Below, piece by piece: positions 30,415 to 44,691 of a stretch of DNA of 64,000 bases. The stretch's first letter is position 1, and every line of letters starts with the position of its first letter. Position numbers and translations under genes: made by a program. The DNA comes from Methyloversatilis sp. (lineage in GTDB: Bacteria; Pseudomonadota; Gammaproteobacteria; Burkholderiales; Rhodocyclaceae): the NCBI RefSeq assembly GCF_030698125.1, contig NZ_JAUYNV010000025.1, forward strand, positions 248,001 through 312,000, given 5' to 3'. The notes beneath the pieces were generated by a model, which saw only the letters and a list, made by a program, of their open reading frames with translations, ran no database searches and was not told the origin of the DNA.

Positions 30415-31266
30415 ATGAATGCCTTGCTTGCCGACCCGCAGCCGCTGGCCGACTTCATCGCGCAGCATGCGGTGCCGCTCTGCCTGGGTGCGCTCGGTGT
30501 TGCCTTCGCACTGGCACTCGCCGGTCAAGCCACCGCCCGCCGCCTGTGGCCAACCGGCAGCCGCACCCCGGCGCAGATCGCGACGACCGGCGCCGTCTGC
30601 CTGCTGTGCGCGCTGTTGCTGTTCATCGCGATCGCCTCCGCGGTGTCTGCCGACGGCGATCTGGTGCGCCTCGACCACGCGCTGGCCGATGCCATGGCGG
30701 CACATCAGTCCGCCGGCGCGCTGCGTGTGTTCGCCCTCTTTACGCACTTTGGCGACACCATCGTGCTGACCGGGCTGTGCATCGCGGGTGCAGCAGCGCT
30801 GCTGGCGGGCAGGGAGCGTCTGCTCGCCGCTGCGCTGGTGGCGGCCATCGGCGGCAATTCGCTGCTGAATCACTCCTTGAAGGCGATGTTCGCGCGCGTG
30901 CGTCCATTGCACGAACACGGCCAGACCTGGGAAACCAGCTGGAGCTTCCCGAGCGGTCACAGCTCGGGCACGCTGGTGGCGTACGGCATGGCGGCCTGGA
31001 TATTGATGCAGTTGATGCCGGCGCGCTGGCATCTGCCGGTGCTGCTGAGCGCCGTCGCCATCGCGCTCGTGACCGCGCTGAGCCGCGTCGTGCTGCACGT
31101 GCATTACGCGAGCGATGTGATGGCGGGTTTCGCATCCGGCTCCGCGTGGCTGACGCTGTGCATCACCGTCGCCGCGCTGCTTCGTCGACGCTCGGCCCCC
31201 TCATGCAACCAACCGGCCGGCGAAATGCCTGAACGCACAGCGGTCCACAAGGAGCAGCAATCATGA
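30415..31266 (+). CDS. PAP2-family membrane phosphatase
   Basis: The 283-residue membrane protein has about six hydrophobic helices. The phosphatase signature is complete: KAMFARVRP (KxxxxxxRP), SFPSGHSSG (PSGH) and SRVVLHVHYASDV (SRxxxxxHxxxD). These enzymes remove phosphate from phosphatidate, PG-phosphate or undecaprenyl pyrophosphate on the periplasmic face. The gene starts 7 nt after the phosphoesterase stop and overlaps the start of the ADP-ribosylglycohydrolase gene by 4 bases, so the group from 28663 to 32294 is one operon. Confidence 0.9.
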   Translation: MNALLADPQPLADFIAQHAVPLCLGALGVAFALALAGQATARRLWPTGSRTPAQIATTGAVCLLCALLLFIAIASAVSADGDLVRLDHALADAMAAHQSAGALRVFALFTHFGDTIVLTGLCIAGAAALLAGRERLLAAALVAAIGGNSLLNHSLKAMFARVRPLHEHGQTWETSWSFPSGHSSGTLVAYGMAAWILMQLMPARWHLPVLLSAVAIALVTALSRVVLHVHYASDVMAGFASGSAWLTLCITVAALLRRRSAPSCNQPAGEMPERTAVHKEQQS

Positions 31267-32294
31267 TCGATCACTCGCGCCTCGAAGCGGCCTGGTGGGC
31301 CAGCTTCATCGGCGACGCACTGGCCATGCCGGTGCACTGGTATTACACGCGCAGCCGCATCGCCGCCGACTATGGCGAGATCGACCACTACATGGCGCCG
31401 CACAATCCGCACCCGGACAGCATCCTGTGGCGCAGCACGTACCGGCACACCGACGCGACCGACGACATCCTGCATGACCAGGCCCGCTTCTGGGGCGGGC
31501 CGCGCGGCATTCATTACCACCAGTTCCTGCACGCCGGCGAAAACACGCTGAACATCCGGCTCGCCGCACTGCTTGCCGAGTCGCTGGTCGAATGCGGCCA
31601 GTACGACCGCGATGATTTTGCGCGCCGCTACCTGGACTTCATGCTGACGCCCGGCACGCATGGCGATACCTACGTCGAGGAATACCACCGCGCCTTCTTC
31701 AAGCACTATGCCGAAGGCCGCGAACTGGACCATTGCGGCATCGAGGACATCCACATCGGCGGTCTGGCGACGCTGACACCGCTCATCCTGTTCCACGCGG
31801 CCAACCGTCACGCGATGCACGATGCCGTGGCGTCGCACATCGATCTGACGCACAAGGGACCGGTCGCCGCCGAGGCGGCGAAAGTATTCGCGGACCTGAT
31901 GTATTTCCTGCTGCAGGGCGCGCCGCTCGATGACGCCATCGAGCGCGCGGGCGGCGCTGCGCACACTGCGCTGACGTGGCCGTACCGCTCCTGGGTGCCC
32001 ACGCGCCCGGACGACGAAGTCGTCGGCGCTCAGTTCAGCCCGGCCTGCTATCTGGAAGATTCACTGCCGGCGACGCTCTTCCTGGCCGTGAAATACGGGT
32101 CTGATCTGCGCGCGGGACTGATTTCAAACGCTAAGCTGGGCGGAGACAACTGCCACCGCGGCGTCGTGCTCGGCGCACTGCTCGGCGCCCAGGGCGGCAT
32201 GGCTCAAGTGCCGCCGGCATGGGTGACCGGACTGCATGAGCACGCGCGTTATCGCGCACTGATCGATGCGATCCTGAAAATTTCGCTCAGCTGA
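31263..32294 (+). CDS. ADP-ribosylglycohydrolase family protein
   Basis: This 343-residue all-alpha protein starts with the family pattern SFIGDALAMPVHWYY and has YRHTDATDDILHDQ and LGGDNCHRGVVLGALLGAQGG. These align with the two metal-binding blocks of DraG/ARH hydrolases, which remove ADP-ribose from modified Arg or other residues. The second block is normally GGDxDT; here the second Asp-Thr pair reads CHRG, so the metal site may differ or the activity may have changed. It is the last gene of the lipid-phosphate operon. Its substrate is unknown. Confidence 0.82.
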   Translation: MIDHSRLEAAWWASFIGDALAMPVHWYYTRSRIAADYGEIDHYMAPHNPHPDSILWRSTYRHTDATDDILHDQARFWGGPRGIHYHQFLHAGENTLNIRLAALLAESLVECGQYDRDDFARRYLDFMLTPGTHGDTYVEEYHRAFFKHYAEGRELDHCGIEDIHIGGLATLTPLILFHAANRHAMHDAVASHIDLTHKGPVAAEAAKVFADLMYFLLQGAPLDDAIERAGGAAHTALTWPYRSWVPTRPDDEVVGAQFSPACYLEDSLPATLFLAVKYGSDLRAGLISNAKLGGDNCHRGVVLGALLGAQGGMAQVPPAWVTGLHEHARYRALIDAILKISLS

Positions 32295-33623: not shown

Positions 33624-33938
33624 TCACGATGCGACGTCCCCGGCTTCGCTCAGCGCACCCAGTTCGCGCAGATAGGCCCACGGATAGATGCCGCGCCGGT
33701 GGCCGTCGGAGAACACGAGGTTCAGGCCGGTACCCGCCATTGCGTGCGCCTCGGTCAGCGCGACTTCGCTGCAGTCCTCCGGTGGCGCACCGGCGCGCGC
33801 CGCCTTCGTGCAGAAAGCGCAGCGGCAGCGCGCGCGCAGCAGTGCATGGGGGAGCGCGCTGGCGCTGTCGTCATCCCACTCGATGCGCAGCAGCCGCGAC
33901 GCGCTGAGTAAGGTGACGCTCCGTGGCAGCGCACTCAC
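33624..33938 (-). CDS. DUF971 (gamma-butyrobetaine hydroxylase-like N-terminal) domain protein
   Basis: This 104-residue protein consists of one DUF971 domain: LRIEWDDDSASALPHALLRARCRCAFC...GIYPWAYLREL. The Cys-rich RCRCAFC segment resembles the zinc or Fe-S site of the N-terminal domain of gamma-butyrobetaine hydroxylase. The start is GTG at 33938, overlapping the stop of the ABC ATPase by 4 bases (GTGA), so it is the tail gene of the sulfur-island operon. DUF971 proteins are often linked to Fe-S assembly; the role here is not known. Confidence 0.85.
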   Translation of the reverse strand: MSALPRSVTLLSASRLLRIEWDDDSASALPHALLRARCRCAFCTKAARAGAPPEDCSEVALTEAHAMAGTGLNLVFSDGHRRGIYPWAYLRELGALSEAGDVAS

Positions 33939-34804
33939 AGCATCGCTCCCACGCCTTCGGCGCCGACGTGCCAGTCGTGCCCGGCCAGACCGCCCTCCTT
34001 CAGCTCACCGCCCATTGCCGCGAGACTTTCTTCGCGAATGAGCGCCTTCAACTGACGGTGCAGCGCGACAAAGGTCGGCGACGAGGTCATTTCAGGTGTG
34101 CGCGGTCGCGGCAGCGGCACCGGGATTTCCGCCTTGATGCGACCCGGGCGCGCGGTCATCACATAGATCTTGTCAGACAGGAAGATGGCCTCTTCGATGT
34201 CGTGGGTGATGAACAGCACCGACAGCTGCAACTGCTGCCACATATTGGTCAGGATTTCCTGCATCACCACGCGCGTCTGCGAGTCGAGCGCTCCGAAGGG
34301 CTCGTCCATCAGCATCACCTGCGGACTGGTGGCCAGCGCGCGCACGATGCCGACGCGCTGCTTCATGCCGCCGGACAATTGCTCCGGGTAGTGATTCTCG
34401 AACGACAGCAGGCCCGCCAGCCCGAGCAGCGTGCGCGCTTTTGTTTCGCGCGCGCTGCGGCTGACGCCTTTCATCTTCAGGCCGAATTCGACGTTCTCCC
34501 GCACGCGCAGCCATGGAAACAGCGAATACTGCTGGAACACGACGCCGCGGTCCGCCCCCGGGCCGCCGACCGGCGAGCCATCGACCGAAACGATGCCCTG
34601 ATGCGGCTTCAGGAAACCCGCGACAATGTTGAGCAAGGTCGATTTGCCGCATCCGGACGGCCCGACGATGGATACGAATTCACCCGGCTTCACGTCGAGC
34701 GACACCTCGCTCACCGCATCGAGCGGCACACCGTTCTGGGTGAAGCGGACGCAGACATCGCGGATTTCGATGTGACCCTTGCCCGGGACGGAAGTGGCGT
34801 TCAT
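33935..34804 (-). CDS. ABC transporter ATP-binding protein, nitrate/sulfonate/taurine type
   Basis: The 289-residue ATPase has Walker A GPSGCGKST, Q-loop VFQQYSLFPW, signature LSGGMKQR, Walker B VMLMDEPFGALD and the H-loop THDIEEA. The sequence is closest to the SsuB/TauB/NrtD group. It energises import with the permease and binding protein encoded before it. Its ATG overlaps the permease stop by 4 bases. A C-terminal extension of about 25 residues ends in a Gly-rich tail. Confidence 0.92.
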   Translation of the reverse strand: MNATSVPGKGHIEIRDVCVRFTQNGVPLDAVSEVSLDVKPGEFVSIVGPSGCGKSTLLNIVAGFLKPHQGIVSVDGSPVGGPGADRGVVFQQYSLFPWLRVRENVEFGLKMKGVSRSARETKARTLLGLAGLLSFENHYPEQLSGGMKQRVGIVRALATSPQVMLMDEPFGALDSQTRVVMQEILTNMWQQLQLSVLFITHDIEEAIFLSDKIYVMTARPGRIKAEIPVPLPRPRTPEMTSSPTFVALHRQLKALIREESLAAMGGELKEGGLAGHDWHVGAEGVGAML

Positions 34805-35766
34805 CGCGTGTTCTCCTTGCCGACCGATACCTGCCAGGGCATGGCGAGCCGGGCCAGCAGGCGGATGGCACCGCTGCACAGCAGACCCAGTACGCCGATG
34901 ACCAGCATGCCGATCACGATGTGTGAATACTCGATCAGCGAATACGCTTCCCAGGTGAAGTAGCCGACGCCGTACTGACCTGAAATCATTTCCGCCGCGA
35001 TCAGCGACACCCAAGCCACCCCCATGCCCACGGACAGTCCGGTGAAGATGTGGGGCATCGCGCCGCGCAGCACCACCTGGGTCATGAGTGCGAACTCGTT
35101 GGCCCCCAGGCAGCGCGCCGCCCGCACCAGCACGCTGTCCATCGTCGCCACCCCGTGCATGGTGTTGAGCAGGATGGGAAAGAACGCGCCGAGGAAGGTG
35201 ATGAACACGATGCTGGTTTCGGTGGTCGGCCACAGCATGATGGACATCGGCACCCAGGCGATGGCCGGTATCGGACGCAGGATTTCCATGGCGGGAAAAA
35301 GCAGACCGCGCGCCGCACGGTAGCGTCCGATCAGCAGGCCGAAGCCCACGCCCAGCACCGTGGCCACGACGAAGCCGAACATGATGCGACGCAGGCTGAT
35401 CGTGATGTTGGTCATGAACTTCGGGTCGCCGAACAGCGCCAGCGCATCGCGATAGACCTCGACCGGACCCGGGATGTGCGTGAAGCGGATGTAGAAATCC
35501 CAGCGATAGGCGGTCGCCAGGTACCAGAAACCGATCAGCAGACCGATGGAAACGACGGCCAGCAGCATTGCCGGCCCTTCGCTGCACAACAATCGCCACC
35601 ATGCCGATGACCTGAGTGTGCCCGCGGGAGCCGCTGTATCGGACCGTTCCGCGCGCCTGACGACGGGCACGACCGGCACCTCACGCAGCGATGTCGCACC
35701 ATCGTCCTGCTTCGGCGCAAACGACCCCACGTCATCCGCGGGCTGAATCCTGATAGCGGTTCCCAT
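34801..35766 (-). CDS. ABC transporter permease, nitrate/sulfonate/taurine type
   Basis: The 321-residue inner-membrane protein has a cytoplasmic N-terminal extension of about 65 residues rich in Pro/Asp, then six helices. The coupling EAA-like loop reads RAARCLGANEFALMTQVVLRGAMPHIFTGL. The family is SsuC/TauC/NrtB. An AAGGAAG ribosome site sits inside the end of the preceding binding-protein gene, 3 nt away. Together with the ATPase and binding protein it forms a full importer. Confidence 0.92.
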   Translation of the reverse strand: MGTAIRIQPADDVGSFAPKQDDGATSLREVPVVPVVRRAERSDTAAPAGTLRSSAWWRLLCSEGPAMLLAVVSIGLLIGFWYLATAYRWDFYIRFTHIPGPVEVYRDALALFGDPKFMTNITISLRRIMFGFVVATVLGVGFGLLIGRYRAARGLLFPAMEILRPIPAIAWVPMSIMLWPTTETSIVFITFLGAFFPILLNTMHGVATMDSVLVRAARCLGANEFALMTQVVLRGAMPHIFTGLSVGMGVAWVSLIAAEMISGQYGVGYFTWEAYSLIEYSHIVIGMLVIGVLGLLCSGAIRLLARLAMPWQVSVGKENTR

Positions 35767-35769
35767 GGC

Positions 35770-37215
35770 TCACTTCCTTACGGTTGCGACGGCCAGTGCA
35801 TCGGCATAGAGCCCTGCCTTGCCGCCGTTGGCGGCGGCATGCGCCTCTGCATCCTTCTTCAGCAGGAAGGGCACGATCTGCGTGGCGCCATCCTTGCTGA
35901 CCAGCGAGTAGAAGGCCTTGTCGGCGAACAGCTTGATCTTGAAGGTCTGATCGAACACGAAGGCCACCCCGACCTTCTTGCCCGATTCCGTTGCCTTGCG
36001 GACCGCCGCCAGCGTGCAGTTGGCCGATTTGTAGGCGGTCAGCGCCCCGCCCTCGATCCACACCTCACCCGCCTCGCGCGGCGCCGTGATGGTGCCGCCG
36101 CACAAGGGGTCGGTGCCCGAGATTTCATAACTCGAATAGCCGGCCTTCTGCGCCGCGTAGTCGAGCCCGAGTTCCTTGTAGGCCTGCATCACATAGGTTT
36201 CATCGACCCACGCGTCGGCGTCGAATTCCTTCACCCGGCCCATGCGGCTCAGCACGCCGTGGTCGTACTTCACCGTTTCGACCCACTTCGGCTTGATGGT
36301 GGGATCCAGCGTATGCACGCCGCCCGGGCCAAGAAACATGTAGGCGACTTCCTTCTCGACTCGCGTCCATTCCTCGATTTTCGTTGCCGCTTCAACCGGG
36401 TTCTTGCGCACCCAGTCGTTGGCTTCCATCAGCGCCTTGATGTAGGCGACGACGAATTCCGGATACTTTCTGGCGAAATCTTCGCGTACCACCACGCCAT
36501 GAAAGGTCGGAACCTTGGTTTCGACGCCGTCGAAAATCTTTCGCGCAAAGCCCCGATAGGGCAGCAACTCGGCGAACGGCACGAAGTCGGCATGGCCGTC
36601 GATGCGCTTTTCCTGCAGGTTCGACGTGCCGACCTCGGGGCTCTGACTCGCCAGTTCCCAGTAGTCCGACTTCCAGCCGCGGTCTTCCATCGCCTTGAGC
36701 AGCATGCCGTGCGCGGCGGAGCCGAACGGCACCGACACCTTCTTGCCCTTCAGGTCGGACAACTGGAAATACGGTGAATCCTTGTGCACCACCATGCCGT
36801 TTCCGGCACCGTCGATGTTGTAGGCGATCAATGCGATCAACCGGCTCTTCGTTTCAGGGCCGGCCTGGAAGGTGGCACCGTTCACCAGCAGCGGATAATC
36901 ACCCATCATGCCGATCTGCAGGGTGTTGGCCACCATGCCGTTGGTCACCGGCGGGCCCGAGGTGAAGTTCTGCCACTCGATCTTGAACTGCAGGTCCTTG
37001 TACTTGCCGGTCTTCGGCAGATGCTTTTCGAGCAGACCCATTTCCTTGATGACGATGCCGCCGGTCACGGTATTGGTCGTCGTGTTCTGTGTGCCGATTC
37101 CCACCGTGATCACCTCGGCCAGCGCTGCCGGCGCACAGACGGCGATGGACATGCCCAGTGCGAGCATGCGCGATGCGGCAGCCAATCGATCGAAACCTGC
37201 ATTCAGTGCATTCAT
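35770..37215 (-). CDS. ABC transporter substrate-binding protein (SsuA/TauA-like) with extra C-terminal domain
   Basis: The 481-residue periplasmic protein has a signal peptide (cleaved near ALAEV) and then an SsuA/TauA/NrtA-type binding domain (about residues 30-365: IGTQNTTTNTVTGG, IGMMGDYPLLVNG, KGKKVSVPFGSAAHGMLL). From Cys372 about 110 residues are added. This part (CGGTITAPREAGEVWIEGG...CTLAAVRK...VPFLLKKDAEAHAAANGG) looks like the NosL fold, but lacks the CGM metal motif. Normal binding proteins stop near 330-370 residues. ATG 37215 has an AGAGGTG ribosome site; GTG 37224 is an in-frame alternative. The ligand is probably a sulfonate-like anion. Confidence 0.86.
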   Translation of the reverse strand: MNALNAGFDRLAAASRMLALGMSIAVCAPAALAEVITVGIGTQNTTTNTVTGGIVIKEMGLLEKHLPKTGKYKDLQFKIEWQNFTSGPPVTNGMVANTLQIGMMGDYPLLVNGATFQAGPETKSRLIALIAYNIDGAGNGMVVHKDSPYFQLSDLKGKKVSVPFGSAAHGMLLKAMEDRGWKSDYWELASQSPEVGTSNLQEKRIDGHADFVPFAELLPYRGFARKIFDGVETKVPTFHGVVVREDFARKYPEFVVAYIKALMEANDWVRKNPVEAATKIEEWTRVEKEVAYMFLGPGGVHTLDPTIKPKWVETVKYDHGVLSRMGRVKEFDADAWVDETYVMQAYKELGLDYAAQKAGYSSYEISGTDPLCGGTITAPREAGEVWIEGGALTAYKSANCTLAAVRKATESGKKVGVAFVFDQTFKIKLFADKAFYSLVSKDGATQIVPFLLKKDAEAHAAANGGKAGLYADALAVATVRK

Positions 37216-37315
37216 GGCGTTCACCTCTCCCAGTCAGTCAAATGAAAAACGACGAAGTGCTGCTGCGGTTGTTGTTGCGGAAGCCTGTCTCCTGCCCAGC
37301 CCATCCACCGCTTGT

Positions 37316-37651
37316 TCATGCGCCCTGAAGGGCGTCGAGGTACTGCCTTTTTTCGCTCACTTCCGCCCAGGCCTCTGCATCGGCGAGTGGTTCATGCGCC
37401 TCGGCGATCACCGGCCACTGCGCGGCGAGGCGCGCATTGAGCTCGATGAACACTTCCTGCCCCGCGGGCAGATCGTCCTGCGCGTAGATCGCACTGACCG
37501 GGCACTCGCTGACGCACACGCCGCAATCGATGCAGATGTCCGGGTTGATGACCAGGAACTCGGGGCCCTCGTGAAAACACTCCACCGGGCAGATATCCAC
37601 GCAGTCGGTGTACTTGCAGCGCACGCATGCTTCGGTCACGACATAGGTCAT
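37316..37651 (-). CDS. 7Fe-type ferredoxin (FdxA-like)
   Basis: This 111-residue electron carrier has Cys9, 12, 17, 21 and 25, then Cys40, 43, 46 and 50. With one residue of shift this is the arrangement of Azotobacter ferredoxin I, which holds a [3Fe-4S] and a [4Fe-4S] cluster. The C-terminal half ([28 protein letters not shown]) is the usual FdxA tail. It lies between the HEAT-repeat and the binding-protein genes, so it is likely the electron partner of the flavoprotein module rather than a free-standing housekeeping ferredoxin. Confidence 0.9.
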
Positions 37652-37661
37652 GGCTTTCTCC

Positions 37662-38609
37662 TTACTTCTGCGCCAGGGTGATGGCGGTGAGCGCAAGCCG
37701 CGACAGCTTGCGCACATCGGGATCGGCATCGCCGAGCGCGGCCTCGAGCGCCGGAATCGCACGCGGGTCGGCAATTTCGCCGAGCGCGATGGCGGCTTCC
37801 TTGCGCACGTTTCCTATCGTGTGGGTCAGCGCTTCGATCAGCGCCGGCAGCGCTGCGACCGCCTTCAGCAGACCGAGCGCGCGCGCGGCTTTCACGCGCA
37901 CCTGCCAGTACTCGTCATGCATGGCGCGGATCAGATCGGGAATGGCCAGACCGAGCCGCAACTTGCCCAAGGTCTGCGCCGCCTCGTCGCGCACCATCCA
38001 TGAGGTGTCGGCAAGACCGCGCGTCAGCGCCGGCAGCACACTCACCTCGCTGGAATAGCCGATGGCACCGATGGCGATGCGCCGCACGTCGGCGTCCGCA
38101 TCGAGCGCCGCCACCTGGGCCAGCGCACCGATCGCCTCCGGCATGCGCAGGTAGCCGAGCACACCGACCGCCTCGCGCCGCACGCCGGCGTCCGTGTCAC
38201 TCAATGCCTCCATTGCCGGGGCAAAGGCTTCCGGCACACGCAGCGCCCGGACGGCACGAAGGGCCAGCATGCGCACCTCGGCCGAGTGGCCGCGCAGAAA
38301 CGGCAGCAGTGGCACGGCGGACGCGCTTTCCTTCAGCTCGGACAGCACGACACCCGCCGCGGCGCGGACATCGGCATCGGCATCGAGCAGCATCGGGGCC
38401 AGCGCCGAAACCACCTCGGGCTCTTCGTAGCCTTCGAGCGCACGCACCGCTTCGGTCCGCACCGATGCGTCCGGGTCGGCCAGGCGCGGCAGCAGCAGCG
38501 GCACGATGTCGTCCTCGTCGCCGTACGGCAGGTCGATCACGGCAAGGCGCCGCACTTCGGCGTCGGCGCTGCCGAGGCGCTCGGCGACTGAACAGTTCTG
38601 GATATCCAT
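37662..38609 (-). CDS. HEAT-repeat protein (PBS lyase-like repeats)
   Basis: The 315-residue protein is made almost wholly of about nine 31-residue helical repeats with the pattern D.D..VR..A..ALG ([51 protein letters not shown] and others). There is no signal peptide, Cys or catalytic motif. Such repeats form protein-binding solenoids or, in phycobilin lyases, cofactor chaperones. Lying between two ferredoxin genes behind an AprA-like flavoprotein, it may act as scaffold or assembly factor. That role is a guess from context. Confidence 0.87.
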
Positions 38610-38620
38610 CGTCGGGCTCC

Positions 38621-38854
38621 TCAGCGCAACAGGTAGGGAATCGACACGCTGACTGCACCGGTCGGGCAATCCGTCTCGCACGGCAGGCAGTACCAGCACT
38701 CGTCGAATTTCATGAAGGCCTTCTTGGTCAGCATGTCGATGGCGAGCACGTCGAGCGGACAGACATCGACGCAGACGGTGCAGCCCTTCTCGGCGATGCA
38801 TTTGTCGTTATCGACATTCACCGGAACCTGGGTCTGCGTGGTGGCTATGGTCAT
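38621..38854 (-). CDS. Short AprB-like 2[4Fe-4S] ferredoxin
   Basis: The 77-residue protein has two clusters of Cys: 19, 25, 28, 32 and 53, 56, 59, 63. The segment FDECWYCLPCETDCPTGAV followed by SVSIPYLL resembles the ferredoxin part of APS reductase beta subunit (AprB: ECWECYSCIKICPQGAI). It stops where AprB would continue with its long C-terminal tail, which wraps around AprA. It is encoded directly after the AprA-like gene, so it is presumably that protein's small subunit. GAGGAG lies 7 nt before the ATG. Confidence 0.88.
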   Translation of the reverse strand: MTIATTQTQVPVNVDNDKCIAEKGCTVCVDVCPLDVLAIDMLTKKAFMKFDECWYCLPCETDCPTGAVSVSIPYLLR

Positions 38855-38893
38855 GGCGTAACTCCTCTGGATTCGGGCGATGTGATCGGGGTG

Positions 38894-40624
38894 TCAGGCG
38901 GCTTCGGCGTTGTGCGCGACGCGCAGCCGCTGATAGGCGCTGCGCTCTTCCTCGTCGATCGGCACGATGTAGGGCTCGATGGCCTTCTTGCGCATCTGCA
39001 TGCGGCCTTCCGCGCTCTTGCTCAGCAGCGAATGGCAGAACCAGTTCTCGTCGTCGCGCTCCGGGTGATCGAGGAAATAGTGGTAGAGGCCCCAGCGGCT
39101 TTCGGTGCGGAACATCGATGCCCGCGCCGCCATTTCCGCGCAGTCGAGAATGGAATGCGCTTCCATCGCACGCATCAGTTCGTGCGGGTTGGCCGCGAAC
39201 ATCGACTCGGCGTCTTCGCGGATCTCGTCGAAGCGACGCAGTGCGATCTCGTACTTGCGCGTGATCTTCGGCGGCTGCAGGTAGTCATTCACCAGGCGGC
39301 GCGTCTTGTACTCGATCTGGTAAGGCGTCAGCCCGTCGGTCCGGCCCAGCGGCGCGAGAATGCGTCGCTCCTCGGCGGCGACGTCTCCTGCATCGACCAC
39401 GCCCTGGCCGTGGCCGGCGCAGTAGGCGGCGGCGTTCTCGCCGCACAGCCGACCGTAGACGAAGGCCCCCAGCATGTAGTTGTGCGGCACGCTGGCGCAG
39501 TCGCCGGCGGCATACAGACCGGGCACCGACGTCTCACCCATCGCGTTCGTGTGGATGCCCGACGCGCTGTGACCGCTGCAGAAGCCGATTTCCGAAATGT
39601 GCATCTCCACCATCTGCTTGCGGTAATCGTTGCCGCGATTCTCGTGGAAGCGACCGCGGCTGGGCCGCTCGTTGGTATGCAGGATGGTTTCGATCTCCTG
39701 GATCGTTTCTTCCGCCAGGTGGTCGAGCTTAAGGAAGACCGGGCCGTTGCCGCCTTCGAGTTCGTTGTAGAACTCCATCATCATCTGGCCGCTCCAGTAG
39801 TCGCATTCGATGAAGCGCTCGCCCTTGGAGTTGGCGGTGAAGCCGCCGAAGGGGCCGGTCACGTAGGCGCAGGCCGGTCCGTTGTAGTCCTTGATCAGGG
39901 GATTGATCTGGAAGCACTCGAGATTGGCCAGATCGGCGCCGGCGTGGTAAGCCATCGCATGGCCGTCACCGCAGTTGGTCGGGTTTTCGTAGGTGCCCAT
40001 CAGATAACCCGATGCCGGCAGGCCGATGCGCCCGGCCGCACCGGTACACAGCACCGCCGCCTTCGTGCGGATGACATAGGTGTCGGCGGTACGACAGTCG
40101 AAGCCCATGACGGCCACCACTTCCCCGTCCGCGCCGGTCAGCACGCGCGTCACGACCACCCGGTTGGTCACCTCGACACGCGCCTTCTTCAACTGGCGGT
40201 AGAGGATCTTCTTCATGTGATGCCCCTCGGGCATCGGCAGCACGTAACTGCCGAGGTGATGCACCTTGCGCACCGCGTAGTCGCCGGTTTCGTCCTTCTC
40301 GAACTTGACGCCCCACTGATCGAGCTGGTTGATCATGTCGAAGCTGTTCGCGGCGTAGGCCATCACCGCTTCCTGATCGACGATGCCGTCATTGGCGATG
40401 GTGATTTCCTTGACGTACTGCTCGGGCGTCGCGTGGCCCGGAATGACCGCGTTGTTCAGGCCGTCCATGCCCATCGAGATCGCGCCGCTGCGCTTCACGT
40501 TGGCCTTGTCGACCAGCAGCACGCGCAGCTTCGGGTTCTTCTCCTTCGCCTTCACCGCGGCCATCGGGCCGCCTGTCCCGCCGCCGATGACGACGAGATC
40601 GAATTCCAGGTCAATGCGCTTCAT
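38894..40624 (-). CDS. AprA-like FAD oxidoreductase (fumarate reductase/APS reductase flavoprotein family)
   Basis: The 576-residue flavoprotein has the FAD motif VVIGGGTGGPMAA at residues 11-23, KRSGAISMGMDGLNN, and a second FAD segment GLYAAGDCASVPHNY. The C-terminal domain (PHELMRAMEAHSILDCAEMAARASMFRTESRWGLYHYFLDHPERDD) matches the AprA pattern rather than SdhA/FrdA, and the gene is followed by an AprB-like ferredoxin. From memory of AprA structures, a Trp and an Arg that hold AMP are not conserved (the region reads INPLIKDYNGPACAY), while a His in SGHSASG is. It is therefore unlikely to be a true APS reductase. The substrate is unknown; a sulfur compound brought in by the ABC importer is the leading guess. 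Confidence 0.85.
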   Translation of the reverse strand: MKRIDLEFDLVVIGGGTGGPMAAVKAKEKNPKLRVLLVDKANVKRSGAISMGMDGLNNAVIPGHATPEQYVKEITIANDGIVDQEAVMAYAANSFDMINQLDQWGVKFEKDETGDYAVRKVHHLGSYVLPMPEGHHMKKILYRQLKKARVEVTNRVVVTRVLTGADGEVVAVMGFDCRTADTYVIRTKAAVLCTGAAGRIGLPASGYLMGTYENPTNCGDGHAMAYHAGADLANLECFQINPLIKDYNGPACAYVTGPFGGFTANSKGERFIECDYWSGQMMMEFYNELEGGNGPVFLKLDHLAEETIQEIETILHTNERPSRGRFHENRGNDYRKQMVEMHISEIGFCSGHSASGIHTNAMGETSVPGLYAAGDCASVPHNYMLGAFVYGRLCGENAAAYCAGHGQGVVDAGDVAAEERRILAPLGRTDGLTPYQIEYKTRRLVNDYLQPPKITRKYEIALRRFDEIREDAESMFAANPHELMRAMEAHSILDCAEMAARASMFRTESRWGLYHYFLDHPERDDENWFCHSLLSKSAEGRMQMRKKAIEPYIVPIDEEERSAYQRLRVAHNAEAA

Positions 40625-40709
40625 GTTCTCTCCTTGATTGGGGCTGCACTGTCACGCTTCGGCGCGCAGCTGCGAACGAAGAATTCCTGCGTTGCTTTCC
40701 AGTGGTGGA

Positions 40710-41489
40710 TCAACTTCGGTCGATGCGCAGGCGGTACTGGAAGGCGTCGCCGCGGTAATAGAGAAATTCGAAATCGATGGGCCGGTCGTCGGCCCAGGTC
40801 AGTCGCTCTATGCGCAGCAACGGCGAGGCCTCGGCGATGTCGAGATGGCGGGCAAGCGACTCGTCGGACGAGATCGCCTCGATCTGCACGTCGGCGTGCG
40901 TGAGGTTGCGGCCGAGGTCGTTTTCGAGAATGACGAAGATGTCGCGGGTGGCCAGGTCTTCCTGGGTGAGCCGCTCGCCGATGTCCGGCGGGAAGTAGCT
41001 CACGTCGACCGAGATCGGTTCGCGGTTCAGGTAGCGCAGACGCTGGATTTCGAACACCGGCGCCTCCGCCTTGAGCTGCAGCCGCTGTGCCACGAGGGCG
41101 CTCGCGGGGACCTGTCTGGCGCTGAGCAGCAGGGAGTAGGTTTCGTAGCCGGAAGTGGACATCGCCTCGCCGAATCCCTGCAGCCGCGACAGACTCTGGA
41201 AGGCCTTGGGCTTGGCGACGAAGCTGCCCTTGCCCATCACCTTGAAGATGAGCCCTTCCTTCTGCAGGTCGCCCAATGCCTGCCGGATCGTGATGCGGCT
41301 GACGGCGAATGCCGAAATCATCTGGCTCTCGGACGGCATCTGCGAATGCGGCGGATAGCTGCCGTCGAGAATGCGCCGGCGCAGGATTTCGCGGATCTGC
41401 GTGTACAGCGGCATCTGCGATACCGGTGACAACGCATCCGCGACCTTGGCGGCGCCCGGGGGCGCGATCTGCTTGCGGTGGGGTGCCAT
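40710..41489 (-). CDS. GntR-family regulator (HutC/UTRA type)
   Basis: The 259-residue repressor-type regulator has an N-terminal winged helix (YTQIREILRRRILDGSYPPHSQMPSESQMISAFAVSRITIRQALGDLQKEGLI) and a C-terminal UTRA ligand domain ending RLTWADDRPIDFEFLYYRGDAFQYRLRIDRS. CAGGAG lies 7 nt before ATG 41489. It heads the run of genes down to the DUF971 gene on the same strand, and a 22-bp candidate operator lies just upstream, so it likely autoregulates and controls the operon. The ligand would be the imported compound or a product; it is not known. Confidence 0.92.
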   Translation of the reverse strand: MAPHRKQIAPPGAAKVADALSPVSQMPLYTQIREILRRRILDGSYPPHSQMPSESQMISAFAVSRITIRQALGDLQKEGLIFKVMGKGSFVAKPKAFQSLSRLQGFGEAMSTSGYETYSLLLSARQVPASALVAQRLQLKAEAPVFEIQRLRYLNREPISVDVSYFPPDIGERLTQEDLATRDIFVILENDLGRNLTHADVQIEAISSDESLARHLDIAEASPLLRIERLTWADDRPIDFEFLYYRGDAFQYRLRIDRS

Positions 41490-41510
41490 GTTCGATCTCC
41501 TGTTCGGGAA

Positions 41511-41532
41511 CCTGTTATGACGGGTCATGTCA
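41511..41532. promoter_or_regulatory. Candidate GntR operator, copy 1 (upstream of gntR)
   Basis: The site contains TGACGGGTCATGTCA at 41518-41532 preceded by CCTGTTA. It matches the site at 42503-42524 at 20 of 22 positions and lies 22 nt before the gntR start codon. Confidence 0.7.
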
Positions 41533-41592
41533 TGCAAGGTCAGTGCCAATCTTTCCGCCTCGCACCACATATCTATAAACCTTTGATTTGAA

Positions 41593-42447
41593 TCAACTTT
41601 TCAGACTTGAAAGCACATCTCCCGCAGTGATGCACGCACCGGTTTGCTGCACCGCGACAGGCGCTTGCACCAAAGCGGTCGCGTGCGACGGCCAGGCCGC
41701 GACCGCACCGGTGGCCATCAGCAGGCACAGCACGACGCGACGGAAATGTCGCGGGTCCAGACCTCGATAAAGGCGCTCGCCGAGCAGGCCGCCGCCATGA
41801 AAAAGGGGCGCCAGCAGCAGCCCCTGCAGCAGCAGCGACAGGCCGAACAAGCCCGACAGCACGATGGCAATCAGTGCCAGCGGATACAGGCATCCGAAGT
41901 AGACGAGGAAGCTGGCTCGCGCGCGATGACTGTCGGTTTCCACGCCCAGCAGGTAGAGGATGGCCGGCGGTCCGCCGACACCGCCGAAGCCGGTGAGCAA
42001 CCCGCTGAACAGTCCCGCTCCGATGGAACCGGCATGACTGGGGCCGCGCACCAGGCGTACGCCGGTCAGCAAGACCGCTGCGCTGGCAATGACCGCAAAG
42101 CCGATCACCTGCCCGAACAGTCGCGCCGGCAGCACGCTCACCAGCCACAGACCGAGCGGAATGCCGAAGCACGCGGCGCCGAGCATGGGCAGCAGCACGC
42201 GGTGATCGACCATCCGGCGTACCGACGGCGCCAGTGCGTGAGTCAGCGGCAGCGCGTTCAGCAAGGTGACGATGCACAGCGTGTCGCGCGCCGACGCCAC
42301 CGTGGACAGCAGGGGCGCCATCAGCAGCGCCGCGCCGAAGCCGGTCATGCCACGCAGCACGCCGCCTGCGACCACTGCGCCGGCAATCACCGCCCAGCTC
42401 GCGATGTCGCGGTCCGGCCACAGCGTGTTCAGCAGCGAAGCATCCAA
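41593..42447 (-). CDS. TauE/SafE-family sulfite/organosulfur exporter
   Basis: The inner-membrane protein has about 284 residues from TTG 42447. It contains two TauE/SafE halves, each with paired helices (GAVVAGGVLRGMTGFGAALLMAPLL and LTGFGGVGGPPAILYLLGV). Members export sulfite, sulfoacetate or related anions. TTG 42447 has GGGAG 6 nt upstream and gives a short N-terminus before the first helix. ATG 42510 lies inside the shared operator and ATG 42480 lacks a ribosome site. It is likely under GntR control through that site. Confidence 0.86.
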   Translation of the reverse strand: MDASLLNTLWPDRDIASWAVIAGAVVAGGVLRGMTGFGAALLMAPLLSTVASARDTLCIVTLLNALPLTHALAPSVRRMVDHRVLLPMLGAACFGIPLGLWLVSVLPARLFGQVIGFAVIASAAVLLTGVRLVRGPSHAGSIGAGLFSGLLTGFGGVGGPPAILYLLGVETDSHRARASFLVYFGCLYPLALIAIVLSGLFGLSLLLQGLLLAPLFHGGGLLGERLYRGLDPRHFRRVVLCLLMATGAVAAWPSHATALVQAPVAVQQTGACITAGDVLSSLKS

Positions 42448-42502
42448 TCGGTTCTCCCGGGCGGGACAGGCGGCGCGCATTCCGCGTCGGTGCGACGCCA
42501 AA

Positions 42503-42524
42503 CCTGTCATGACAGGTCATGTCA
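42503..42524. promoter_or_regulatory. Candidate GntR operator, copy 2 (upstream of tauE-like gene)
   Basis: The site contains TGACAGGTCATGTCA preceded by CCTGTCA, and has TGACA...TGTCA symmetry. It lies about 56 nt before the proposed TTG start of the TauE-like gene. Confidence 0.7.
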
Positions 42525-42527
42525 AGC

Positions 42528-42550
42528 AAAAGCCGGGCCGGTGATCCGGC
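42528..42550 (-). terminator. Possible weak terminator of the YeiH-like gene
   Basis: On the minus strand a GCCGG-ATCA-CCGGC stem is followed by CCGGCTTTT. It lies about 130 nt after the YeiH-like stop. The 5-bp stem is short, so this is tentative. Confidence 0.3.
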
Positions 42551-42675
42551 GAACCACCCCTCCACCGCAAGGCCTTGCCAGCCGTGCCTTCGCCTTATCT
42601 GCCCGGACTTGCCCTGCGACGCCGGCATGGACCGCAGCGGTGCGTCGGCACGATCTGCGCTCTGCTTTCGTGCAT

Positions 42676-43686
42676 TCATGACAGCGCCCCGAGGCTGACC
42701 AGGCCGAAGCCGGCAAGCAACAGCCATATCCAGAGCAGCGCAGCGAGCGCCCACACCCGCCAGCCCGCTAGCGCCATGTCGGCCAACCGGGTGTTGGCAC
42801 CGAGCGCCGCCAGACCGACCGCCAGCAGCGCCTGCGCCGCTTCGGCACCCAGGGCGTGCAGCCACGCCGGCAGCAGACCGGACGCATTGAGCGCCATTGT
42901 TGCGATGAAGCCGTACAGGAAAAGCGGAACGCCCGGGCTGCACGAGCCCGTCGTGCCGCCATTGCGCCATCGGGCAGCGATCAGCATGACGACCGGCGCC
43001 AGCAACATCACGCGCATCATTTTCTCGACCAGCGCACTGGCCGCAGCCTCCGGCCCGGCCGCCGCAGCGCCGGCCACGACATGGCCGAGTTCGTGCACCG
43101 TCAGCCCCACCCACAGGCCGAAGGACAGATCGCTCAAGCCCGTCAGGGGATGGAGAATGGGCAGCAGATACATGCCCAGCGTGCCGAACACCACCACCGC
43201 CAGCACCGCCGCGGACACATGGCGCGCCCGGGCACCGATCACGCTGTCGGCGGCCGCAACCGCCGCGGCACCGCAGATCGCGCTGCCGCAGCCGACCAGC
43301 ACGGCCACTTCGGGGTCGAGTCCGAGACGACGCCCAAGTGCCAGCGCCAGCCCGAGGGTGCTGAGCACAACGACCACCGCCATCAGCAGACCGCTCCAGC
43401 CCACCCGGCCCAGTTCGTCGATGCCGATGCGCAGTCCGTACAAGGCGATGCCGGCGCGCATCAGGGTGCCGCGCGCCAGACGGAATCCTTCGGCGCCGCG
43501 CGACGGCAGCGAAGGCCACAGATTGCCAATCACGATGCCCAGGGAGACCGCCAGGGGCAGCCAGCCGAAACCGTATGCCGACACACCGGGCAGGCCGGAA
43601 AGGGCCGCCGCTGCACCGGCAACCGCGACCGACGCAGCAAGACCGGTCGGCAGGCTGGGCGGTGTGAGGGCAGTCGTCGTATTCAT
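42676..43686 (-). CDS. YeiH-family putative sulfate/sulfite exporter
   Basis: The 336-residue membrane protein has about ten helices and the UPF0324/YeiH markers GIALYGLRIGIDELGRVGW, GCGSAICGAAAVAA and VGLTVHELGHVVAGA. The family is annotated as putative sulfate exporters; in enterobacteria yeiH is divergent from the LysR gene yeiE, as it is here from the LysR gene at 43786. ATG 43686 is chosen; ATG 43740 is in frame but gives an unsupported N-terminal extension. No strong ribosome site is visible for either. Confidence 0.88.
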   Translation of the reverse strand: MNTTTALTPPSLPTGLAASVAVAGAAAALSGLPGVSAYGFGWLPLAVSLGIVIGNLWPSLPSRGAEGFRLARGTLMRAGIALYGLRIGIDELGRVGWSGLLMAVVVVLSTLGLALALGRRLGLDPEVAVLVGCGSAICGAAAVAAADSVIGARARHVSAAVLAVVVFGTLGMYLLPILHPLTGLSDLSFGLWVGLTVHELGHVVAGAAAAGPEAAASALVEKMMRVMLLAPVVMLIAARWRNGGTTGSCSPGVPLFLYGFIATMALNASGLLPAWLHALGAEAAQALLAVGLAALGANTRLADMALAGWRVWALAALLWIWLLLAGFGLVSLGALS

Positions 43687-43768
43687 GGGCGGGTCGCGGG
43701 CTGCAGAAAGTGAATGCAGCGTACGCGGCGAGCCATTCATTCTTCTATATCATGCAAATCACTGTTCG

Positions 43769-43783
43769 ATTACCTTGGGTAAT
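43769..43783. promoter_or_regulatory. Candidate LysR operator (ATTACCTTGGGTAAT)
   Basis: This is a perfect 6-bp inverted repeat with a TTG centre and a T-N11-A pattern. It lies 2 nt before the LysR start codon, in the space between lysR and the divergent YeiH-like gene. Confidence 0.65.
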
Positions 43784-43785
43784 GC

Positions 43786-44691
43786 ATGAACCTGCATCTT
43801 CTGCGCATCTACGTGAAGGTCGTCGAAGTTCAGAGCTTCTCCCGCGCGGCCGAAGGGCTGAACATCACGCAGCCTGCGGTATCGAAGGCGGTGCGTGAGC
43901 TCGAATCGCAGCTCGAAACCGTGCTGCTCGACCGCCGTGGCAAAACATTCAAGCCAAGCGAGTCGGGCCGCGCGCTGTACGAATACGGGCGCAGCATCCT
44001 GGCGCTCGAACGGGAGGCGACCGAAACCATCCGCGCCTACAGTTCGCTCGAACGCGGGCGGCTGACCATAGGCGCCAGCACCACCATCGCCACCTACTGG
44101 CTGCCGCCCTTCCTGGTCGATTTCCACGCCCGCCATCCGCAGGTCGAACTGCAGGTGATCAGCGGCAACACGCGGCAGATCGCCGATCTGTTGCTGGAGT
44201 GCCGGATCGACGTGGCACTGGTCGAAGGCGATGTGGACGATGCGCGACTGAACCGCCGCGTCTGGCGCCGCGACGAAATGGTGATCATCGCGCCGCGCGA
44301 TGCCGAGTTGCCGACCGGCGGCGCCCTGCGGCCGGCCGATCTGGCCGATCACAGCTGGATCGTGCGTGAACGCGGCTCCGGCAGTCGCGCCGCCACCGAC
44401 CGTGTGCTCGATGAAATGGGGCTGACGCCGGCACGCACGATAGAGGTGGGCAGCAATGAGGCGATCGTGCAGACCGTGGCGGCGGGACGCGGTCTGGGCA
44501 TGGTGCCGCGCATCTGTGCGCGCGACCAGCTGGCACTGGGCCGCATACGCCGTCTGCACCCGGGCGGGGCCGCGATACAGCGCACGCTCTACCGCATCCG
44601 CCTGCCCGAACGCCCGATCAGCCCGGCCGCCCTCGCCTTCGAAGCCTTGTTGGCGAACGCGCAAGCGACGGCCGACGATGCGTCCAGGTAG
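43786..44691 (+). CDS. LysR-family regulator (YeiE/CysB-like neighbour of YeiH)
   Basis: The 301-residue regulator has the N-terminal winged helix (LRIYVKVVEVQSFSRAAEGLNITQPAVSKAVRELESQLETVLLDRRG) and a PBP2-type ligand domain (ERGRLTIGASTTIATYWLPPFLVDFHARHPQVELQVISGNT). It is divergent from the YeiH-like exporter, the standard layout of a LysR gene and its target. In Salmonella YeiE is linked to sulfite handling, which fits the surrounding genes. The ligand here is inferred, not shown. Confidence 0.9.
   Translation: MNLHLLRIYVKVVEVQSFSRAAEGLNITQPAVSKAVRELESQLETVLLDRRGKTFKPSESGRALYEYGRSILALEREATETIRAYSSLERGRLTIGASTTIATYWLPPFLVDFHARHPQVELQVISGNTRQIADLLLECRIDVALVEGDVDDARLNRRVWRRDEMVIIAPRDAELPTGGALRPADLADHSWIVRERGSGSRAATDRVLDEMGLTPARTIEVGSNEAIVQTVAAGRGLGMVPRICARDQLALGRIRRLHPGGAAIQRTLYRIRLPERPISPAALAFEALLANAQATADDASR

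Follow-up and report, generated by a model that had tools for sequence, protein, structure and literature searches.

A conserved bacterial operon combining an AprAB-like redox module with a TauA/SsuA-like importer and its possible role in sulfonate use

Gene content and conservation of the operon

The subject of this analysis is an operon of Methyloversatilis sp. (RefSeq assembly GCF_030698125.1, contig NZ_JAUYNV010000025.1) in which a flavoprotein related to AprA, the alpha subunit of adenosine 5′-phosphosulfate (APS) reductase, is encoded together with ferredoxins and an ATP-binding cassette (ABC) importer. It lies in a stretch of 64,000 nucleotides (nt), positions 248,001–312,000 of the contig, which is referred to here as the window and whose numbering is used for all coordinates; the host genome is 4.2 Mb in size. 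The operon is on the minus strand and begins with a GntR/UTRA regulator (40710–41489, the probable start being revised from the open reading frame (ORF) call at 41570; PF07702 and PF00392). This is followed by the AprA-like flavin adenine dinucleotide (FAD) flavoprotein (38894–40624), an AprB-like ferredoxin of 77 residues with two [4Fe-4S] clusters (38621–38854), a HEAT-repeat protein (37662–38609; PF13646, and the C-terminal part of PRK13800 with 92 bits) and an FdxA-type 7Fe ferredoxin (37316–37651; NF045490, 154.9 bits against a cut-off of 135). The importer comes next, as an ABC substrate-binding protein (SBP; 35770–37224), a permease of the TauC/SsuC type (34801–35766) and an ATPase of the TauB/SsuB/NrtD type (33935–34804), and the last gene encodes a DUF971 protein (GBBH-like_N; 33624–33938; PF06155, 69.9 bits). 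The gaps between consecutive genes, from GntR onward, are 85, 39, 11, 10, 91, 3, −4 and −4 nt, and a GGDEF response regulator is the next gene past DUF971. Upstream of GntR, on the same strand, are a TauE/SafE-family sulfite exporter (41593–42510, with its true start probably inside the ORF; PF01925, 84.7 bits) and a YeiH-family membrane protein associated with sulfite resistance (42676–43740; PF03601, 238.7 bits; TIGR00698, 205.5 bits against a cut-off of 232.6), from which a LysR regulator diverges on the plus strand (43786–44691). A sequence-only reading of this DNA, which preceded the present work, had described the one-strand gene set and the exporters with their divergent LysR gene, and all of these were found in place. 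Elsewhere in the window, an ADP-ribosylglycohydrolase-family gene adjoins a PAP2 phosphatase gene (31263–32294), with no visible tie to the operon.

A contig scan gave at least 587 relatives, from which the 80 loci that underlie all counts out of 80 and 76 were kept. In this set, the records named below phylum level are all beta-proteobacterial, and certain contigs are too short to hold every gene. Neighbors were counted by tblastn; separate counts of neighbor clusters and of ferredoxin–NADP reductase (FNR)-like genes were made with a gene caller and are lower bounds, as genes are missed in GC-rich DNA. The AprA-like flavoprotein is followed by the AprB-like and HEAT genes at every locus (80/80 each) and preceded by GntR at 78 of the 80, DUF971 is found at 63 and a related SBP at 58. 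The association of these genes is far from chance, and the expectation of the sequence-only reading that they would be conserved together in other genomes was borne out. The flavoprotein of the window is 100% identical to the copy in a Methyloversatilis metagenome-assembled genome (MAG; L039). For typing, only loci with a downstream stretch of at least 6.5 kb were used (76 of the 80). Type 1 has an SBP more than 50% identical to that of the window (31/76 loci, with FdxA in 30 of the 31), and type 2 has an SBP of at most 50% identity and lacks FdxA (25/76); loci without an SBP form a third type that is considered below. The M. discipulorum MAG of the same genus contains two module copies (L199 and L083), one per SBP type, with a palindrome (described below) at each.

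A PRK08275 protein scored over the curated cut-off in 15 of 299 genomes drawn evenly from the phylum, the genome of the window included. A plasmid search at E 1e-100 gave 51 records, 17 of which were opened (one of them unannotated). The module was found on plasmids of Acidithiobacillus caldus, rhizobia, Bradyrhizobium, Methylobacterium, Methylocystis, Aquabacterium, Cupriavidus, Acinetobacter, three cyanobacteria and the actinobacterium Tsukamurella. The operon is widespread in bacteria and, as no study of this flavoprotein family or operon was found among open-licence PubMed Central (PMC) articles, apparently without study so far.

Several neighbors of the module were seen in particular lineages. 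On the A. caldus plasmid pTcM1, a protein of 1153 residues whose sole match is Pyr_redox_2 is encoded after the module (10574–14035 of L119), and on a Sinorhizobium americanum plasmid a sulfate ABC system, a sulfonate ABC system and a TauD-family gene lie directly upstream of it (1–7176 of L141). A Crp/Fnr-family regulator adjoins the module in the alphaproteobacterial-type loci L120, L121, L126, L131–L134, L137, L141, L142, L145 and L146, which suggests oxygen-linked control there. A gene for a YtfQ-type (galactofuranose-like) binding protein, of which one member was scanned, stands beside six loci, namely the Ralstonia-type ones plus two others (L072, L073, L077, L081, L134 and L137). Genes for amidase or allophanate-hydrolase-like proteins are found repeatedly close to the module, in L046, L051, L098, L110, L127, L128 and L132.

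An APS reductase-related flavoprotein with different active-site residues

The AprA-like protein is a member of NCBIfam family PRK08275 (NF006131, 1063.7 bits against a cut-off of 587) and falls below the cut-off of the aprA model (161.5 against 641.75 bits). Its nearest solved structure is the alpha subunit of the dissimilatory-type 3′-phosphoadenosine 5′-phosphosulfate (PAPS) reductase of Methanothermococcus thermolithotrophicus (MtPAPSR; PDB 8a8o, 4e-54), with APS reductase next. MtPAPSR resembles the system of the window in pairing an FAD-containing alpha subunit of ∼570 residues with a ferredoxin-like beta subunit that holds two [4Fe-4S] clusters, and its authors proposed an assimilatory role for it. 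However, identity in the fold match is 24%, and the operon of the window adds a dedicated importer, HEAT and FdxA and has no sulfate-activation genes.

Residues were compared in an alignment of the window protein and ten relatives with A. fulgidus AprA, MtPAPSR, seven environmental AprA and four succinate dehydrogenase (SDH) rows; four of the seven environmental rows scored over the cut-off as aprA and three of the four SDH rows as sdhA_frdA. Rows L001, L002, L030, L032, L036 and L037 were left out, L001 being included in the tree described below. We use what we take to be the A. fulgidus numbering and roles, with R265 as the catalytic Arg, H398 as the active-site His, and W234, G274, Q145 and E141 as substrate contacts. 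At the R265 position, Leu is found in the window protein and in all ten relatives, whereas A. fulgidus AprA, MtPAPSR and the seven other AprA have Arg. W234 is replaced by Tyr and G274 by Cys in the same 11 proteins, while MtPAPSR retains Trp and Gly; Q145 is replaced by Val and E141 by Lys or Arg, two positions at which MtPAPSR differs too (Ser and Arg). The active-site His is kept, as H352 of the window aligns with the His of MtPAPSR and with that of the environmental AprA (the aligned part of A. fulgidus AprA stops short of it), and so is the Asn at the AprA N74 column; both residues are thus shared with MtPAPSR, and the substrate loop differs. The family has a loop of its own, VH(H/R)xGxYVLPMP, which is found in neither the AprA nor the SDH rows, and in place of the SDH and fumarate reductase (FRD) motifs QFHP and GARGEGG it has QINP and TGPFGG.

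In a maximum-likelihood tree of 50 sequences, several of them long outgroup branches, the 37 members of the AprA-like family occupy their own side with moderate support (89/93), separate from the clade of AprA and PAPS reductase (100/99) and from the SDH-like group (100/100). The sequence-only reading had named placement within a characterized clade of other function as one result that would overturn it, and the family branches outside the characterized AprA/PAPSR and SDH clades. Conservation reaches at least 98.5% at 198 positions across 78 sequences from three phyla. The AprA-like protein is not an SDH, nor is it an APS reductase of the standard kind.

These data bear on three alternative functions. 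The database name of PRK08275 and PRK13800, ‘fumarate reductase/succinate dehydrogenase flavoprotein subunit’, would make the protein an SDH or FRD. This is hardly credible, since the name is supported by neither the active-site residues nor the tree, the operon has no membrane anchor or SdhB-type partner, and the context is one of an importer and sulfite exporters. An APS or PAPS reductase variant serving sulfate assimilation would fit the nearest solved structures and the shared alpha/beta gene pair. We consider it very unlikely in view of the Leu, Tyr and Cys at the three positions where MtPAPSR keeps Arg, Trp and Gly; an ABC importer is also unlikely to supply APS, and the genome encodes a CysH-like protein. 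Finally, the flavoprotein could reduce the organic part of its substrate by hydride transfer to a C=C or C=O bond, as fumarate and urocanate reductases do, with sulfite being freed later or elsewhere. Membership in the fumarate reductase superfamily and the loop residues His122, Gly125 and Tyr127, which are unlike APS reductase, speak for such a reaction, but the absence of the SDH/FRD motif residues and of any further recognized desulfonating gene in the operon makes it rather improbable.

The AprB-like protein contains the Cys residues for two [4Fe-4S] clusters and an adjoining Trp: eight Cys and Trp54 are invariant in 101 of 101 sequences, the window included. It matches AprB of D. gigas (5e-9), which has a Trp at the place of Trp54, and falls below the cut-off of the NCBIfam aprB model (35.3 against 135.65 bits). 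The dissimilatory AprAB enzymes of A. fulgidus and D. gigas thus resemble the pair of the window in gene arrangement, flavin, clusters and the Trp beside a cluster Cys of the beta subunit; they differ in the APS-site residues, which are not conserved here, and in the size of the beta subunit (150–166 residues in solved AprB chains compared with 77). In MtPAPSR, Trp42 has been proposed as a participant in electron transfer (PMC10322725), and Trp54 would be its counterpart.

The NCBIfam model PRK13800 (898 positions) joins an AprA-like part and HEAT repeats in one chain, and the Tsukamurella flavoprotein, with 893 residues, is of similar size. HEAT is therefore probably a subunit or scaffold of the flavoprotein. 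DUF971 is a domain of the Fe–S carrier HCF101, and in three cyanobacterial loci (L122, L128 and L140) an Mrp/NBP35 ATPase gene follows HEAT with no DUF971 listed, so both proteins probably serve Fe–S cluster assembly. An FNR-like gene lies near the flavoprotein at 24 of 100 loci, 18 of them beta-proteobacterial, where it directly follows DUF971; in the one member scanned, the best NCBIfam match was FNR (157.6 bits against a cut-off of 390). In M. radiotolerans, FdxA adjoins an annotated FNR. Together with FdxA in the operon, these neighbors suggest that the complex would be driven in the reductive direction by reduced nicotinamide adenine dinucleotide phosphate (NADPH).

A palindrome shared by the operon and the TauE exporter gene

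The regions upstream of GntR have in common a 16-bp palindrome with the consensus ACTTGTCATAACAAGT. At up to four mismatches, it occurs within 1.6 kb upstream of the AprA-like gene at 76 of 80 loci, mostly ∼800–900 nt upstream, i.e. before GntR, and at a minority of loci close to the flavoprotein; no palindrome was found within the searched 1.6 kb in L092, L093, L100 and L107. Among 140 control stretches, the best match mostly had six or seven mismatches and four mismatches were reached in three. A sigma-54-type promoter stands just before the palindrome at 28 of the 32 FdxA-type loci and at two of the 48 others. The distance between the two elements is 8 nt in 25 of these 30 cases, and the same loose promoter pattern was present in 0.3% of control segments. 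In the window, palindrome 1 (41510–41525, minus strand) and the promoter TGGCAC-N5-TTGC (41534–41548, minus strand) precede GntR and the operon. Palindrome 2 (42502–42517, minus strand) and a degenerate sigma-54-like promoter (42526–42540, minus strand) precede TauE with the same spacing as at GntR. Because these elements lie at or inside the ORF-finder starts of GntR and TauE, the true starts are probably farther downstream. The palindromes are presumed operators that GntR would bind.

The palindrome is specific at the genome scale. In 28 whole genomes, ACYTGTYATRACARGT was found at up to one mismatch at 38 positions, compared with three for the reversed control. From the content or position of the locus, 36 of these 38 matches could be assigned to GntR/AprA-like loci, to TauE, to a second GntR/AprA-like copy (L196) or to an SsuA-type ABC operon. 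The other two (L197 and L198; L185 position) have no promoter and unrelated neighbors and were judged to be chance matches. The copy in L196, from Albitalea terrae, is a second set of GntR, AprA-like, AprB-like and SBP genes located elsewhere in that genome, with its own palindrome. The genome of the window contains just two palindromes, one at GntR and one at TauE, and the TauE site recurs in six of the seven GntR-type clusters with TauE (the window, L039, L040, L045, L048 and L199). In a Rubrivivax MAG, this combination of promoter and palindrome also stands before a separate operon that encodes an SBP above the SsuA_fam cut-off (180 against 163.5 bits), ABC components, a DUF971-like protein (48% identity) and FNR-like proteins. 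Among 20 further loci, the best match had one to three mismatches in L124, L125, L129, L138 and L144, four in L119, L127, L128, L130 and L143, and five or six in the rest. The palindrome is present in Pseudomonas-type and Cupriavidus loci and is weaker in Acinetobacter.

TauE belongs to a named sulfite exporter family (PF01925). The YeiH protein of the window shares 38.6% identity over 319 residues with E. coli YeiH, and the LysR protein is 31.3% identical to E. coli YeiE over 281 residues (E 1e-38), with Nac and Cbl scoring lower; the divergent layout is that of E. coli yeiE/yeiH. In Salmonella, the yeiE-yeiH pair confers sulfite resistance (PMC12880088). The layout of the window is the same as in Salmonella, but here the pair adjoins an organosulfur-type operon and a TauE gene bearing the palindrome of that operon. 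In 5 of 15 genomes, YeiH and the flavoprotein are encoded no more than 8 kb apart, compared with an expected 0.06; leaving out the genome of the window gives 4 of 14 (naive P 2.6e-7). Three of these four belong to one family, and counting two lineages gives P ∼0.0015; one search behind these counts covered 59 distinct genomes. Two of the cyanobacterial plasmids with the module also carry YeiH and TauE, and no palindrome was found there. In the cyanobacterial locus L122 (6388–8424), a LysR protein encoded next to the module has a C-terminally fused NMT1-like binding domain, 36% identical to the SBP of the operon, and may, from its domain composition, be a regulator that senses the ligand of the transporter. 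A LysR protein of like size and position is encoded in L140 (5661–7661).

The export genes and promoters bear on the nature of the substrate. It is improbable that the operon handles a non-sulfur anion, nitrogenous or other, with the sulfite exporters as a lineage-specific addition. Importers of the NitT/TauT class also carry nitrate, bicarbonate and pyrimidines, sigma-54 promoters such as those at the operon often take part in nitrogen control, no exporter is listed for A. caldus, and the TauE palindrome is limited to one cluster type; the amidase and allophanate-hydrolase genes beside certain loci point the same way. Against this stand the TauE palindrome in nearly all GntR-type clusters that have TauE, the recurrence of YeiH in several proteobacterial lineages as well as, with TauE, on the two cyanobacterial plasmids, and the second target of the palindrome in Rubrivivax, an SsuA_fam importer above the cut-off.

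Importer and possible function of the operon

The SBP did not reach the SsuA_fam cut-off (116.3 against 163.5 bits). In a Foldseek search with its structure model (mean predicted local distance difference test (pLDDT) score 81.7), PDB ranks 1–8 were all TauA or SsuA, led by TauA (8e-21) and then SsuA. By this modeled fold, the importer appears to belong with TauA/SsuA, as the sequence-only reading had proposed in calling it an SsuABC/TauABC-type importer. The SBP has an extra C-terminal domain (about residues 365–484) that is NosL-like, although its match in the window (E 0.0018, 19 bits) is below the cut-off of 24 bits; NosL matches at E≤0.01 were obtained in 16 of 28 SBP members (best 1.6e-5). 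Two Cys residues of this domain (35770–36130 in the window) are kept in close SBP rows and lost in distant ones.

The sequence-only reading had noted no known desulfonating enzyme, naming SsuD, TauD, Xsc and MsmABCD. For the first two this extends to the whole genome, in which neither the luciferase family PF00296 (SsuD type) nor the TauD family PF02668 gave a match at E≤0.001, with E. coli controls positive in both; Xsc and MsmABCD were not searched for. SsuABC and TauABC with SsuD and TauD resemble the system of the window in importer class and in a likely sulfur-scavenging role, but here the redox module has ferredoxins and no recognized oxygenase gene. PAPS_reduct was matched three times in the genome, by two CysD-like proteins (73–74% identical to E. 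coli) and one CysH-like protein (27.5%), and the CysH-like gene adjoins an ORF with two NIR_SIR domains that presumably encodes sulfite reductase.

At slightly below even confidence, we explain the operon as encoding a ferredoxin-driven AprAB-like flavoenzyme complex that would supply sulfur for assimilation by releasing sulfite from a sulfonate-like anion taken up by the cell. The anion would be brought in by the NosL-tailed TauA/SsuA-like importer. Electrons would pass from NADPH through FNR, which is encoded beside the operon in many relatives and not in the window, and through FdxA to the two [4Fe-4S] clusters of the AprB-like protein, whose invariant Trp would hand them to the FAD of the AprA-like protein; HEAT would act as a scaffold, and DUF971 would load the Fe–S clusters. 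As in the reaction of N5 with APS, the reduced FAD would attack or reduce the sulfo group, in a site that appears to have been re-made (His and Asn kept, Arg lost), and this step would yield sulfite and a desulfonated product. Sulfite would enter sulfite reductase, with any surplus leaving through TauE and YeiH. GntR would repress the operon and, in this cluster type, TauE at the sigma-54-type promoters until an effector arrives, and the YeiE-like LysR protein would sense sulfite for YeiH.

Carbon leaves poorly in the N5 mechanism of APS reductase, and the substrate would therefore be expected to have an activated C–S bond (e.g. alpha to a carbonyl) or to be an N-, O- or S-sulfo compound. One version of the latter, unlikely though not negligible, is a sulfo substrate with a better leaving group (a sulfate ester, a sulfamate, an S-sulfonate or Bunte salt, or thiosulfate), from which N5 would remove SO3 to give sulfite and an alcohol, amine or thiol. 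It would retain the N5-on-sulfur mechanism (PMC10322725), and it agrees with the kept His and Asn and with a cluster of sulfate/thiosulfate-binding proteins (one member scanned) beside GntR in eight loci, seven of them from Caballeronia or named relatives. However, the importer resembles sulfonate binders, and no sulfatase was recognized among the scanned neighbor clusters. The Arg that we take to serve the sulfo group in APS reductase is, in addition, Leu in this family. Sulfoquinovose was considered as a substrate because GH31, major facilitator superfamily and porin genes lie upstream in three Paraburkholderia/Burkholderia loci (L096, L108 and L113), and this lead was set aside: the top matches of the L096 GH31 protein were alpha-glucosidase and alpha-xylosidase models, none of them reaching the cut-off, and its score with PRK10426, which we take to be the YihQ model, was even lower.

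A number of observations weigh against the release of sulfite from an imported sulfonate. The dedicated importer is not a constant part of the system: the type without an SBP makes up 20 of the 76 loci, and no close SBP was found elsewhere in the genome in 18 of 19 importer-free genomes searched (controls 2/2 positive). The substrate may therefore enter by another route or have an internal origin. The catalytic Arg of APS reductase is Leu here, so the chemistry may differ, and in the structure model of the AprA-like protein residues 238–352 are below pLDDT 50, which leaves the pocket unreadable (the admissible sequences came from one beta-proteobacterial scan). TauE was found in 4 and YeiH in 20 of 80 loci, all with an SBP more than 50% identical to that of the window; many relatives have no exporter nearby, and for A. 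caldus neither exporter is listed within 18 kb of the module. The six clusters with a TauE site are all of one type, and the Aquabacterium plasmid (L125) has the palindrome at GntR and none at its TauE. The tie between exporter and operon drawn by the sequence-only reading is thus supported in the window and in five relatives belonging to its type and lacks this support on the Aquabacterium plasmid. In alphaproteobacterial, cyanobacterial and actinobacterial plasmid loci, the palindrome was not clearly found (best four to six mismatches), and at a few loci the neighbors are the nitrogen-compound genes for amidase or allophanate hydrolase. A lead on co-regulation was also rejected. In P. putida, the ABC binding-protein gene PP_0170 rises with tau, ssu and lsfA genes (PMC2703642). 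Its forward primer was found in 0 of 25 Pseudomonas-type genomes of one genus and 6 of 398 of another. Both primers were present in the five of these loci that were fetched, with an SBP ∼21% identical to that of the window in four and unmatched in one; PP_0170 belongs to a different ABC system, and no AprA-like gene was present in the 15–19 kb of the five loci.

The aerobic desulfonases SsuD and TauD require oxygen, and to our knowledge the acquisition of sulfonate sulfur by ordinary bacteria without oxygen is poorly known. In a broader form, of which we are more doubtful, the proposed function would amount to oxygen-independent scavenging, in which an APS reductase-related, ferredoxin-fed flavoprotein complex found across proteobacteria, cyanobacteria and actinobacteria would reductively free sulfite from organosulfonates, and in some lineages a GntR repressor at sigma-54-type promoters would also command an exporter. 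If the complex is a reductive desulfonase, it would represent a new enzyme class, and a database name found in many genomes would have to be corrected. The small regulon would then offer a genetic handle on how soil bacteria, rhizobia, cyanobacteria and methylotrophs use organosulfur compounds. Should the substrate be another anion, an APS reductase-like clade that has lost the catalytic Arg and has a dedicated importer would still point to unrecognized chemistry of this fold.

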